Source: Microglena sp. YARC
Lineage: Eukaryota > Chlorophyta > Chlorophyceae > Chlamydomonadales > Chlamydomonadaceae
Assembly (NCBI GenBank): GCA_022414725.1
Contig: CM039462.1
Location: forward strand, 35,068,558 to 35,132,557
Reading direction: 5' to 3'
DNA length: 64,000 bases
The translations under genes and the position numbers were made by a program. This document shows positions 512 through 51,395 of this stretch, in pieces; the first letter of the stretch is position 1; each line of letters begins with the position of its first letter. The notes beneath the pieces were generated by a model that searched no databases, was not told the DNA's origin, and saw nothing but the letters and a program-made list of their open reading frames with translations.

Positions 512-664
512 GCTGCTCTCAAAGCACTCAGTGGGTGGTGGTCACCAATGGCGACAATGAGTACGACAAGGACTTCCTCCCACGTGTTGCATCCACACCC
601 TCGCACTTTGGAATAATCTCCTTTGACTTCTACAGCCGCTACCAACGTCCCACTGCTGAGATTG
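512..664 (+). CDS. Gene 1 exon A, unnamed protein with TNGDNEY motif
   Basis: The exon begins after a pyrimidine-rich CCTACCTTTAG acceptor and reads CSQSTQWVVVTNGDNEYDKDF, then PRVAST, FDFYSRYQRPTAE. The TNGDNEY segment looks like an acidic metal or nucleotide-sugar-binding motif of GT-A glycosyltransferase-like proteins; that assignment is by resemblance only and is not secure. The exon is the first of at least three collinear plus-strand exons (next at 7,381 and 8,846). The expected donor position, judged from the decayed copies downstream that read ACTG|GTGAGC, here reads ACTGCTGAGA, so the GT has become CT. Either a different donor is used or this allele is damaged. The N-terminal part of the protein lies outside the window. 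Confidence 0.7.
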
Positions 665-769
665 TTTGTCTTTTTTGCAGCAAATGTAGGGGGGTCTTGG
701 GTACCCTTTCTGTCCATAAAACACCCTTATAAGTCAAATAAATAGCCCCCCTCCCCCAAAGTAGCAATG

Positions 770-905
770 GCTGCTGTCAACTGCCCACTGGCAAGATTTG
801 GTGTTGCTTTATTACACAGACTGTCAGCTGCTGCCAACAGCCCACTGGTGAGCTTTTGGTTTGTTTTTATTACGTGATCTGCCAGCCCTACCAACGTCAT
901 ACTGG
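770..905 (+). pseudogene. Three decayed copies of the 3' end of exon A
   Basis: At about 778, 834 and 886 the sequence repeats the exon A end (CTACCAACGTCCCACTG plus intron flank) in progressively altered form. The middle copy keeps a canonical GTGAGC donor. These are exon-intron-junction duplicates inside the intron. Confidence 0.6.
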
Positions 906-985
906 TGGGATTTGTTTTGGGGGAGCCCCCCCTTCTGGGGGACGGGAGCTCCCAGGGTCACCCCGTTGTCCCATTGTTTGTTTAC
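900..985 (-). repeat. Dispersed GGGGCTCCCGCC-family repeat, partial
   Basis: Shares the paired segments AGCCCCCCTTCTGGGGG and GGGAGCTCCCAGGGTCACC with copies at 10.1, 17.1, 26.5 and 29.5 kb. This copy is truncated and in reverse orientation. Probably a short mobile element of unknown class. Confidence 0.6.
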
Positions 986-989
986 CACT

Positions 990-1110
990 CCTCCACCACT
1001 CCTCCACCACTCCTCCTCCACCACTCCATCACTCCTCCTCCACTCCTCCACCACCACTCCTCCTCCTCCACATCTCCACCACTTCTCCTCCACCACTCCT
1101 CTAACCCTCA
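990..1110. repeat. CTCCACCACTCCT low-complexity tract
   Basis: Imperfect repeats of CTCCACCACTCC. Open reading in several frames is a composition artefact. Confidence 0.9.
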
Positions 1111-1195
1111 CCCATTGGCCCCAGTTTAAGCAAACAGGCTGGCCCCCTCAACCTCACAGCTTGTAATAAGACGTACCCTTTATTTATTTATTCAC
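1105..1195 (-). repeat. Dispersed ACGCCTTAT..GAGGCGTGAGG repeat
   Basis: Reverse-orientation copy of a family also seen near 19.92, 22.32, 52.23, 55.08 and 56.16 kb. Each has a TAAATAAATA end, a short hairpin, and a conserved CTGGGGCCAACCACC end. Probably a short non-autonomous element. Confidence 0.6.
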
Positions 1196-1499
1196 ACTCA
1201 CCCCTCCCTGCCCACCGCCCACGTACTGCCCACCTCTCCTCCTCTTTCTCCTCCTCTTACACTTCTCCTCGACCGCCACATCTTTAGCTGAGCCTTGTCT
1301 CCGATTCGCGAAGTCCCTGGAGGCCCCCCTTTGTAAAGAGAACAAGCTGAGTTTCTGTAACACAGACCTAGCCGCGGCTGTGTACAACTGGCCTCGATTT
1401 GTCAAGGAGGAGAGGGCATTCTCTAAGGTGCGAGCAGCGAGGGGTAGCAGTACTTCAGTGTACTTCAATGTACTTCTGTGTACTTTGGTGAGGAGATTA

Positions 1500-1775
1500 C
1501 TTCGATGTGAAGAAGAATGGAAAGAAAGCATCGAAAGGGAGGGAGGGTAGAGAGGGAGAGGAGTGAAAGGAGGGAAGTGAGTGAAGGTAGGGAGTGGAGA
1601 GAGAGTAGTGAAAGGAGGGAAGGGAGTGAAAGGAGGAAAAGGAGGGAAGGGAGTGAAAGGAGGGAAGGGAGTAAAAGGAGTGAAAGGAGGGAAGGGAGTG
1701 AAAGGAGGGAAAGGAGGGAAGGGAGTGAAAGGAGGGAAGGAAGAAATAAAGAAAGAAAGGAAAAAAGGGAGAAGG
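1500..1775. repeat. Purine-only GGAGGGAAGGGAGTGAAA array
   Basis: About 270 bp of A/G-only sequence built from GGAGGGAAGGGAGTGAAA-like units. Such tracts can form triplex DNA; the long frames through it are artefacts. Confidence 0.9.
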
Positions 1776-1809
1776 GTCTGCAAGAATTGTGCTTATTGAT
1801 TTTGCTATC

Positions 1810-49515: not shown

Positions 49516-49671
49516 GTGTGATGCAGCCAGAGGGGACGAGTGATAGCGCGGCTCCTCTTGCACTGCCAGCACCAGGAGAGGAGACGGTGGTGGAATCCAA
49601 AAACTTGGCCACAATTATCGATGCGTCTTCCGGACAGACCATCAAGCTAGACCACATGGGTCCCCTAGTAG
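49516..49671 (+). CDS. Gene 3 exon, IIDASSGQTIKLDHMGPLV
   Basis: A 156-bp exon after CCCCAACAG, ending before GTGAGAA. It reads MQPEGTSDSAAPLALPAP, GEETVVESKNLAT, then IIDASSGQTIKLDHMGPLV and ends in phase 1, which joins the exon at 51,331 to give LVVSTIGSLSRITNWEQL. The C-terminal part resembles a short conserved region of unnamed plant and algal proteins of the type (I/V)KLDxLGPxxVNxDGTLSRIxNWxxM; I recall the pattern but cannot name the family. Only this last copy of the array continues past VVE, so it is the functional one. Confidence 0.75.
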
Positions 49672-49689
49672 GTGAGAAATAATTAGCAT

Positions 49690-50205
49690 GAGTGTGAAGA
49701 TGATTCTGAGGAGGAGGAGGAGGAGGAGGAGGAGGAGGAATGTGATGATAAATATGATGATGAAGAGGAGGAGGAGGAAGAGGAGGAGGAATATGATAAT
49801 GATGATGATAAATATGATGAGGAGGAGGAGGAAGAGAATGAGGAGGATGTGTATGATGGTGATGAGGATGAGGAGGAGGAGCATGATAATGATGATGATG
49901 AATATGATGGTGATGATGAGGAGGAGGAGAAGGAGGAGGAGGAGGAGAAGGATGCGTATGATGATGATGATGATGAGGAGGAGGAGGAGGAGGAGGAGTA
50001 CGATAATGATAGTGATGATGAGAAAGAGGAGGAAAAGGAGGAGGAGGATGCATATGATAAGGAGGAGGAGTATGATAATGATGAATATGATGGTGATGAG
50101 GAGGAGGAGGAAGAGGATGCGCATGATGATGATGATCATGAAGAGGAGGAGGACGAGTTTGATTATGATGATGATGAGGACGAGGAGGAGTATGATGATG
50201 ATCTT
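49690..50205. repeat. GAGGAG/GATGAT trinucleotide tract
   Basis: About 500 bp of (GAG)n and (GAT)n blocks. One plus frame encodes almost only Asp and Glu, another Arg and Met; it lies in the intron after the exon donor. Confidence 0.92.
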
Positions 50206-50275
50206 TACATTATCCTGGTGCCCATATGGACTCCCAAATGTTGTCCACTAGGTGAGACAAAATTGTAATGATAGT
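50206..50275 (+). pseudogene. Decayed downstream copy of the gene 3 exon end
   Basis: ACATTATCCTGGTGCCC.., CATATGGACTCCCAAATGTT and CCACTAGGTGAGACAAAA track the exon end (ACAATTATCGATGCGTC.., CCACATGGGTCCCCTAGTAG, GTGAGAAAT), keeping the donor. Confidence 0.65.
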
Positions 50276-50282
50276 GATCATA

Positions 50283-50462
50283 GCAATCAAATAAACAAAC
50301 AGACAAACAAACAGACAAACAAACAGACAAACAAACAAACAAACAGACAAACAGACAAACAAACAGACAAACAAACAGACAAACAAACAAACAAACAGAC
50401 AAACAAACAGACAAACAAACAGACAAACAGACAAACAGACAAACAAACAAACAAACAAGCAA
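50283..50462. repeat. AAACAGACAAAC array
   Basis: Tetranucleotide AAAC/AGAC repeat of about 180 bp. Confidence 0.95.
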
Positions 50463-50499
50463 TACATGGTCGTCCTCACTGAGACCTTTTTGGTGTCCC

Positions 50500-51330
50500 T
50501 GCACACTTGAAATTGAAATTGAAATTGACACTGAACTAGGATACATGGCTCCAGCCAGTAATTTTGCTTCTCATCGTCCATTGTTTCTTTTTTTAGCTAC
50601 GCGTAGCAGCTTCTAGGCAGCTCCATTCCCCGTCCTTGGGCCACACCTGAAGCTAGCTAATACCTCGTAGAGCTGGCATGTCATACTCAAACTATGCGAC
50701 ACTCAATGCAGCTGAAAGCTTTGGGCTTGCCCCAGTGGCTGTCAAATGGAGCTGGTTGGAAGCAGATGTTTCCTGTTATATATAGCTTTCGCTACTTTTG
50801 ACCCCATTCTGGCCCAAATTACCGCCATAAAGAACCCACATCTATGGCCCTGGATGGCCATTAAAAGCTATAAAAAGCTTAAAGGACGCTGTCCCTGGAG
50901 GAGGCCTAAACCCATATTAAAGCTATAAAACCCCACTTTCTGAAATACAAAAAATGGTTGGAATCTGATATGAGTAGCCCCAAAGAAGAAACAGTGCCGC
51001 TGTCCACGGCAGTAACATTAATAACTGAAAACAATACCTGCTTACTTGACTTGTGCTTGAACTTGGTAACATTGCTCTAGCCAGCAATTTGGCTGCTCAC
51101 CGTCTCCGGCAGTAACGTTAACAACTGAATTAAAATCGCTGCTTGCTTGACTTGTGCAGTATCAGCAACTGGAGCTCCATATAGCCATATCAGATAACCC
51201 CACCACTCCGCCCTAATGGTCTACACCACCCCGCAACAGAGCACCCACTTCATACCACCACACAACACAACACCCACATTATACCACCCCACAACACAAC
51301 AACCCACTCCCCACCCCACCACTTGTGCAG
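50500..51330. other. Intron of gene 3 with a retroelement-like tail and exon trace
   Basis: An (AAATTG)-type tail at 50,508-50,530 resembles the LINE 3' tail but the adjoining sequence differs. A CAGCAGCTTCTAGGCAGCTCC repeat is at 50,606. A decayed copy of the next exon start (GTGCAGTATCAGCAACTGGA) lies at 51,155-51,200. A CACCACACAACACAAC tract runs 51,225-51,320. Confidence 0.5.
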
Positions 51331-51395
51331 TATCAACAATTGGATCCCTATCTCGGATAACAAACTGGGAGCAGTTGTCTGAGCATGAGAAGGAG
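51331..51395 (+). CDS. Gene 3 exon, SLSRITNWEQLSEHEKE
   Basis: After CCACTTGTGCAG the exon reads, in the phase set by the 49,516 exon, VSTIGSLSRITNWEQLSEHE then KE, and ends before GTGAGCC. The TLSRIxNWxxMTExE pattern continues the conserved region of the previous exon. Downstream exons were not identified in the repeats that follow. Confidence 0.75.

Follow-up and report, generated by a model that had tools for sequence, protein, structure and literature searches.

In the 64,000-nucleotide stretch of Microglena sp. YARC analysed here (assembly GCA_022414725.1, contig CM039462.1, positions 35,068,558 to 35,132,557; the window), exons of three genes, namely gene 1, a deoxyhypusine synthase gene (DHS) and gene 3, are accompanied by partial, diverged copies of their own edges in the adjoining introns. 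The copied units mostly straddle one exon border, and the arrays stop inside the exon. Ordinary local tandem duplication across exon borders, filtered by selection on the mRNA, is probably the main cause. A phenomenon of this kind has already been described in birds; new here are the green alga and a genome that is not GC-rich.

Each exon was compared with 3 kb on either side at a score of at least 22, the maximum of 160 trials with shuffled sequence being 19. Exon borders in the window were set from homology and splice sites. Partial, diverged copies were found within 1.5 kb of 12 of the 15 delimited exons, a set that excludes DHS_3 and DHS_4, which have copies and are without a unique full-length one. 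Within 3 kb on either side, no copy reaching this score was found for gene 1 exon A2, DHS_2 and the last gene 3 exon. The copies follow a strict side rule. Thirty of the 33 copies of 5' edges lie upstream of their exon, and the three found downstream all derive from DHS_11, where the start has not been established as a splice edge; the copies of 3' edges lie downstream without exception (20/20, none upstream). Seven further copies touch both edges or neither. Among 51 copies, the homology extends past the exon border into intron sequence by more than 15 bp in 39, by 6-15 bp in six and by 5 bp or less in six, and the acceptor or donor dinucleotide is kept in 38/41. Identities to the exon span 0.68 to 1.00, most copies differing from it. 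In exons C and 6/7, which carry arrays on both sides, the halves are united in one copy only. Such an arrangement is the necessary outcome of a tandem duplication that crosses a border: the duplicated part comes to lie outward and the exon body stays with the inner copy.

Gene 1 matches the predicted protein P0121 at 99%. DHS spans 40962 to 18857 on the minus strand, and gene 3 is similar to P0150 and P0151. The exons and arrays are as follows.

512..655, plus strand: gene 1 exon A, matching P0121; upstream, at 154-220, a single diverged copy of the first 67 bp
1288..1427, plus strand: gene 1 exon A2, without a local copy
7381..7449, plus strand: gene 1 exon B; 3' half and donor copied downstream at 7533-7564 and 7642-7674
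7847..8888, plus strand: 123-bp array upstream of exon C, eight copies of the acceptor region and first 50-58 bp, the AG being lost in one
8846..9071, plus strand: gene 1 exon C, the copy uniting both halves
9127..9752, plus strand: 176-bp array after exon C, four copies of the 3' half, three reaching the exon end
10806-11963, plus strand: four weaker exon C copies, farther downstream
14382..15013, plus strand: array ending in exon D, seven copies of the acceptor and mostly the first ~42 bp
14970..15094, plus strand: gene 1 last exon D with stop codon, matching P0122 and P0123
15133..16304, plus strand: nine downstream exon D copies of the 3' part, stop included
40913..40962, minus strand: DHS N-terminal exon, with a copy of its 3' part and donor at 40792-40829
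39538..39647, minus strand: DHS exon 2 (MLTTGFQ), without a local copy
29225..29443, minus strand: pieces of DHS exon 3; more copies, inverted, at 32100-32493 and 40331-40698
27744..28181, minus strand: array of DHS exon 4 (LVTTAGG), period 152, without a unique full-length copy
25877..26028, minus strand: DHS exon 5 (GSELRM..WTPSK); 5' edge copy at 26443-26472, 3' edge copy at 25778-25841
24457..24938, minus strand: five upstream copies of the first half of DHS exon 6/7 (RFGE), unit ~110 bp
24251..24412, minus strand: DHS exon 6/7 (RFGE..SIGDML), the sole copy uniting both halves, frame broken as read
23980..24167, minus strand: second half of exon 6/7 (SIGDML), donor included, copied twice downstream in units of ~136 bp
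23188..23276, minus strand: DHS exon 8 (IEDVRR); 37-bp edge fragment at 23451-23488 with 4 bp matching intron
20579..20658, minus strand: DHS exon 9 (HHICNA); 5' edge copy at 20718-20758, 3' edge copy at 20453-20503
18966..19049, minus strand: DHS exon 10 (GSDSGA), with a 5' edge copy at 19133-19182 in a 133-bp unit
18857..18955, minus strand: DHS_11, last coding piece (GDATILF); four downstream copies in 18224-18710, two almost whole
48441..49596, plus strand: gene 3 array with a 140-bp unit, in which the first ~80 bp of the exon occur seven times as copies
49516..49671, plus strand: gene 3 exon matching P0150, the copy with the full 3' part
51331..51395, plus strand: further gene 3 exon, with only a sub-threshold upstream likeness (score 17)

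An earlier note on this DNA had described tandem series of diverged copies at most of these exons between 512 and 51395, limits that, with the exons as placed here, are exactly where exon A starts and the last gene 3 exon ends. With copies at 12/15 exons its strongest cases hold, although some of its counts do not at the score threshold used. Exon C has the eight upstream copies described and eight downstream from its later part, the HHICNA and WTPSK exons have one copy on each side, and the LVTTAGG exon lies inside its 152-bp array. The single upstream copy of exon A was recovered, but not three downstream (best score 24, for a segment centred on the 3' edge). Two downstream copies of exon B were found instead of three, one of the IEDVRR exon instead of two, and two downstream of the SIGDML half instead of three; the DHS terminal exon has copies on both sides, one upstream and four downstream, rather than about five on each. 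At the MIxRFGE half five upstream copies replace the ten or more listed, the kinship of the 97-bp array at 25085-25475 to this half resting on weak protein matches. The seven upstream copies of gene 3 were confirmed, its downstream copy and the copy of its last exon were not, and the exact motif FLGYTSN is absent in six frames. The last exon of gene 1, with seven copies upstream and nine downstream, is among the clearest cases and was missing from that list. The view that introns grow by duplication of units including exon edges and splice sites is borne out; that the units are centred on exons is not, as most straddle one border and the arrays end within the exon.

The same anatomy was found in an independent sample of six chaperonin (CCT) genes at six other places, one each on scaffolds C1, C2, C3 and C4 and two on C5. 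These genes came from a family search and were picked for many matches within 10 kb, not for repeats. There were 64 chaperonin matches, of which the 34 in six clusters were taken; one lay outside the fetched stretches, leaving 33. Local partial copies accompany 17 of these, in five of the six genes; locus L029 has them at five of six matches, L032 (on C4) at none of three. Counted by exon half, 35 five-prime copies lie upstream and 34 three-prime copies downstream, the wrong sides holding 0 and 1, so that 69 of 70 copies are on the expected side. With the three genes of the window, eight of nine genes examined show this anatomy, on scaffolds C1, C2, C3 and C5 (46-195 Mb). At L031:6498-7007, two neighbouring chaperonin matches whose model positions follow directly on each other stand in different frames, which points to an assembly frame error or a very small intron.

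Local duplication is very frequent in this genome. Twenty genome stretches of 10 kb were sampled with 1200 random 80-bp segments, and 48% of these have a direct copy no farther than 1.5 kb away, the rate in single stretches running from 0 to 100%. Of random window segments, 36% have such a copy (n=300). Since local duplication is so frequent, an exon within an array is not surprising in itself. As a control, pseudo-exons of the same lengths were placed in introns and spacers of the same loci (n=250). Their copy rate is not significantly different from that of real exons (120/250 vs 29/48, P 0.16). Copies of the whole length were found at 3/29 real exons against 45/120 pseudo-exons (P 0.004), and copies on the wrong side at 1/29 against 24/120 (P 0.049); in random genome stretches, 121/250 pseudo-exons have copies, 66 of them whole and 42 wrong-sided. 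The three whole-exon cases among the 48 real exons are DHS_11, gene 1 exon D, one upstream copy of which aligns weakly to bases 1-105 of 125 at 73%, and one chaperonin match which is a copy in its own right. The rate at exons does not significantly exceed that of other DNA, but arrays seldom cross them, which argues for selection on the mRNA and not for exon seeding. The selection-driven option of the earlier note remains in the form of filtering.

The following course of events would produce this pattern. Local tandem duplication is pervasive in the genome of the alga, and at exon borders the units would mostly measure ~100-200 bp. When a unit spans a border, the copy beside the remainder of the exon would keep the function, and the other would become a partial pseudo-exon, made of exon edge, splice site and intron tail, in the adjoining intron. 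Repeated rounds would give an array. Duplications of a whole exon, or within one, would alter the protein and be mostly removed, so that 5'-edge copies accumulate upstream and 3'-edge copies downstream, and introns lengthen. The copies would then decay while the true exon is kept by selection. Anatomy, side rule, background rate and whole-exon depletion were observed; the selection step and the neutral decay of the copies we infer. Candidates for the molecular step are replication slippage or template switching, unequal exchange, and templated end joining.

Identities along the copies are compatible with such one-sided decay. The first 20 exon bases from the junction are 0.91 identical and the intron flank 0.79, a divergence ratio of about two to one, as would be expected when the true exon is conserved and the rest drifts. 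Over longer stretches the values are 0.855 for exon and 0.821 for intron (Wilcoxon P 0.005 for 30 non-independent copies), the exon part being higher at 8/12 edges. These data are supporting only, the alignments being anchored on the exon and the copies of one array not independent. The decay also bears on a second explanation, in which the copies serve as alternative or mutually exclusive exons. Acceptor and donor dinucleotides kept in 38/41 copies would fit that explanation, but almost all copies are partial and without the other half of the exon, several contain stops or frame breaks, and the retention is near the one-sided decay prediction (0.91 per base, ~34/41); we regard it as very unlikely. 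Selective upkeep of decoy splice sites is likewise not claimed: ~26 of the 41 would be expected to be kept from the intron flank and ~34 under copy-side decay, and the alignments are exon-anchored.

Several observations weigh against duplication and filtering as the whole account. Edge counts exclude the 3' edge of DHS_10 and the 5' edge of DHS_11. Excluding also edges that are more than 20% masked, 15/18 window edges have a copy (18/28 with masked edges counted), the rate for random window segments being 33-37%, and P is 0.0024 against the 48% genome rate. When the edge set is shifted along the window, the edges score 0.69 against a mean of 0.38 (P 0.0013), and intron DNA 40-300 bp from exons is also raised (0.64, P 0.0013), an excess in pure intron DNA for which one-sided decay gives no account; by the same shifting, the excess in window DNA more than 320 bp from exons is not significant. 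None of 40 nearest-copy offsets at exons is below 90 bp against 14/162 for pseudo-exons (P 0.077), which is suggestive only, and a minimum unit of ~90 bp at exons was not adopted. The nearest copy is a gapped short fragment at 7/17 window and 13/23 chaperonin edges (20/40), among them the DHS_8 fragment of 37 bp, 97% identical with 4 bp matching intron flank. The inversion of the DHS exon 3 copies at 32100-32493 and 40331-40698 is unexplained by plain tandem duplication. The independent sample, finally, consists of one gene family with 33 exon matches, borders from profile matches, and genes of our own choosing.

The enrichment at and near window edges favours an explanation in which exon borders are preferred duplication sites, for example through fork stalling or template switching at edges, nucleosome-sized lagging-strand fragments or transcription-coupled breaks. 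The period of the arrays points the same way at first sight: the 12 exon-touching arrays have a median of 128 against 27 for 103 other arrays (P 1.6e-4), and copy spacings at chaperonin exons are mostly 84-233 bp. Long units, however, straddle borders more often, so that a longer period at exon arrays follows from length-biased sampling. The exon-edge unit length has a median of 170, and length-weighted resampling of random-genome arrays gives 141 (95% 104-190; P 0.15); the long period was accordingly rejected as a sign of a special mechanism. The six chaperonin genes moreover show no enrichment, neither at edges (0.404 vs 0.374 at shifted positions, P 0.29) nor in intron 40-300 bp off (0.381, P 0.35), and pseudo-exons are hit at a similar rate. 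Within the window, the edge test falls to P 0.21 when the DHS edges are removed, the near-intron test staying strong, and the near-intron test falls to P 0.07 when gene 1 is removed. Seeding through a border-linked process, as the earlier note had proposed, is supported in the window (P 0.0013) but neither in the six chaperonin genes nor in the pooled comparison with pseudo-exons, and exon-centred seeding as a general rule was not reproduced outside the window. Border preference as the cause of the pattern is, in our judgement, unlikely.

For part of the events, the gapped nearest copies and the DHS_8 fragment suggest templated insertion, in which an intron break is repaired by copying 30-75 bp of a nearby exon edge (polymerase-theta-like), some of the inserts being tandem-amplified later. 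The fragments of the 5' edge of DHS_5, of DHS_8 and of DHS_9 are 83-97% identical to their exons with 10 bp or less of matching intron, and repair under replication stress is one option named by Hron et al. (PMC12954441). Insertion alone does not produce the strict side rule, however; 20/40 nearest copies are contiguous tandem units, and tandem units that decayed or were interrupted later would look alike. We hold templated insertion to be a tentative possibility, which may operate alongside tandem duplication and selection. Its combination with border preference, whereby borders in some genes are preferred starts of duplication and edge fragments copied into intron breaks are then amplified in tandem, appears rather unlikely; border preference as such is possible for some genes.

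Copying linked to cDNA or splicing, that is, retro-insertion of spliced exon pieces, had also been put forward. Copies of gene 1 exon A, the 5' edge of DHS_5, DHS_8 and the 3' edge of DHS_9 start 6 bp or less from a splice junction, as would be expected. The features of retrocopies, absent introns and starts at splice junctions, are nonetheless not what the copies show: most carry more than 15 bp of co-copied intron flank (39/51), splice dinucleotides are present in 38/41, the copies lie on the side predicted by tandem duplication, and no exon-exon joined copy was seen in the protein match lists. This origin is contradicted for most copies and extremely improbable.

The arrays might finally be an assembly artefact of mis-joined long reads. 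The assembly does contain N gaps, and the frame breaks in DHS and between the two adjacent chaperonin matches may be consensus errors. Most copies differ from their exon, however, eight genes spread over four large scaffolds show the same anatomy, and one such chicken intron was checked in raw nanopore reads by Hron et al. (PMC12954441); we consider an artefact most improbable. The DHS frame breaks lie at 24251-24412, 27744-28181 and 18955-18966, and the genome yielded no DHS locus besides this one: of 25 candidates scored in a whole-genome family search, three matched, all within the window. They may mean a decayed pseudogene or assembly consensus errors, the latter being as likely, because DHS matches only here, several DHS exons are open and conserved, and the chaperonin locus has a similar frame break.

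Exon stuttering was presented in 2026, as part of the sequence stuttering of chicken dot chromosomes, as a novel, bird-centred phenomenon tied to GC-rich dot chromosomes, with gerbil genes briefly named (Hron et al. 2026, PMC12954441). No other paper in the literature searched contains these two terms. Lateral exon parts with the adjacent splice site are copied through the intron there, in 115 genes and 236 introns (PMC12954441). The form seen in the alga, which the earlier note had taken to be undescribed, corresponds to it. In both, imperfect repeats, local and tens to hundreds of bases long, fill the introns, and lateral exon fragments with a splice site lie in the adjoining intron next to intact coding exons, the DHS exons with broken frames being the exception in the alga. 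Copy number is also similar, with a median of 4 per expansion in chicken (PMC12954441) and 1-9 per edge in the alga. Unlike the chicken, the host is a green alga and not a vertebrate, the genes lie on several large scaffolds without a special chromosome class, and the association with high GC is not found (window GC 0.47). The link to GC-rich dot chromosomes is an association in birds and not part of the definition. Further features of exon stuttering in chicken are the restriction of copies to proximal introns and a large variation of intron length within the species (PMC12954441); the analysis of the alga covered one assembly. The control with pseudo-exons, hit about as often in introns as exons are, is an addition of the present analysis. 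No account of exon stuttering outside vertebrates was found in the open-licence literature searched, and the alga is the first such case as far as that literature shows.

Minisatellites likewise consist of units, tens to hundreds of bases long, that are arranged head to tail. In the alga, by contrast, the unit holds a splice site together with the edge of an exon, inside which the array comes to its end. The AGGT model belongs to intron gain by tandem genomic duplication. In that process duplication likewise meets splice sites and creates a new intron (e.g. PMC4974935), whereas in the alga existing introns are lengthened. Tandem exon duplication with mutually exclusive exons is likewise local and involves whole exons that are duplicated and used (e.g. 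PMC9013439); in the alga mostly edges are copied, whole-exon copies are depleted, and copies of whole length occur at 3/48 exons only. The search for copies in the alga reached 1.5-3 kb from the exons. Comparison of the window with itself adds the inverted DHS exon 3 copies, one set of which forms a 108-bp array, and a direct duplication of 7-9 kb inside DHS (26273-34034 / 35188-42170), whose pieces are 76-83% identical and hold exon-array copies of their own. This duplication together with the exon arrays amounts to stuttering at two scales.

The window occupies 35.07-35.13 Mb of a 195 Mb scaffold in an assembly of 568 Mb and 2390 contigs. Judged by sequence, it is nuclear DNA of a chlorophycean green alga, and the product of gene 1 is predicted to be an uncharacterised chlorophycean protein. 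The stitched DHS exons are 63-64% identical to proteins of Volvox, Edaphochlamys, Chlamydomonas and Dunaliella, the top single score being a sunflower-family protein at 44% identity. Random genome stretches have GC contents of 0.42-0.55. Frames near the window end have RNase H matches, and reverse transcriptase matches below the Pfam cut-off; they probably represent a LINE. Scans of the window with Rfam (gathering threshold) and for tRNA gave no matches.

Some further observations concern gene 1. The 6 kb directly upstream of the window (L005) read all N, so that the first exons of the gene lie beyond this gap. The junction of exons A (512-655) and A2 (1288-1427) as placed is without a canonical GT donor, with CTGAG on either side. 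The intron ahead of exon B contains a 50-bp array at 5232-7366 with ~41-43 copies at 93-95% match, about one third of the intron. P0135, a predicted gene 1 paralogue named in a style like that of P0121, carries tandem repeats of the short segments AFDFYSRYQRPT, CDRLA..GLPNCK and SAGCP..SNSELD, which look as if exon copies had been taken into the gene model. Elsewhere in the window, a 130-bp array at 43857-44421, with an acceptor-like site followed by ACGGTGGGCAGCCTGAAGG and an inverted copy 8 kb off at 52136-52214, is possibly an unrecognised exon array.

The same anatomy in an alga of ordinary GC content means that neither GC richness nor special chromosomes are required for exon stuttering. 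Local tandem duplication may suffice, given selection on the mRNA. The alga offers a second system for testing the cause, be it mutation bias or a selective filter. In genomes of this kind, gene prediction may take up decoy exon edges. If border preference were true, exon stuttering would be a way in which introns grow in eukaryotes generally, independent of GC content and first noticed in birds.

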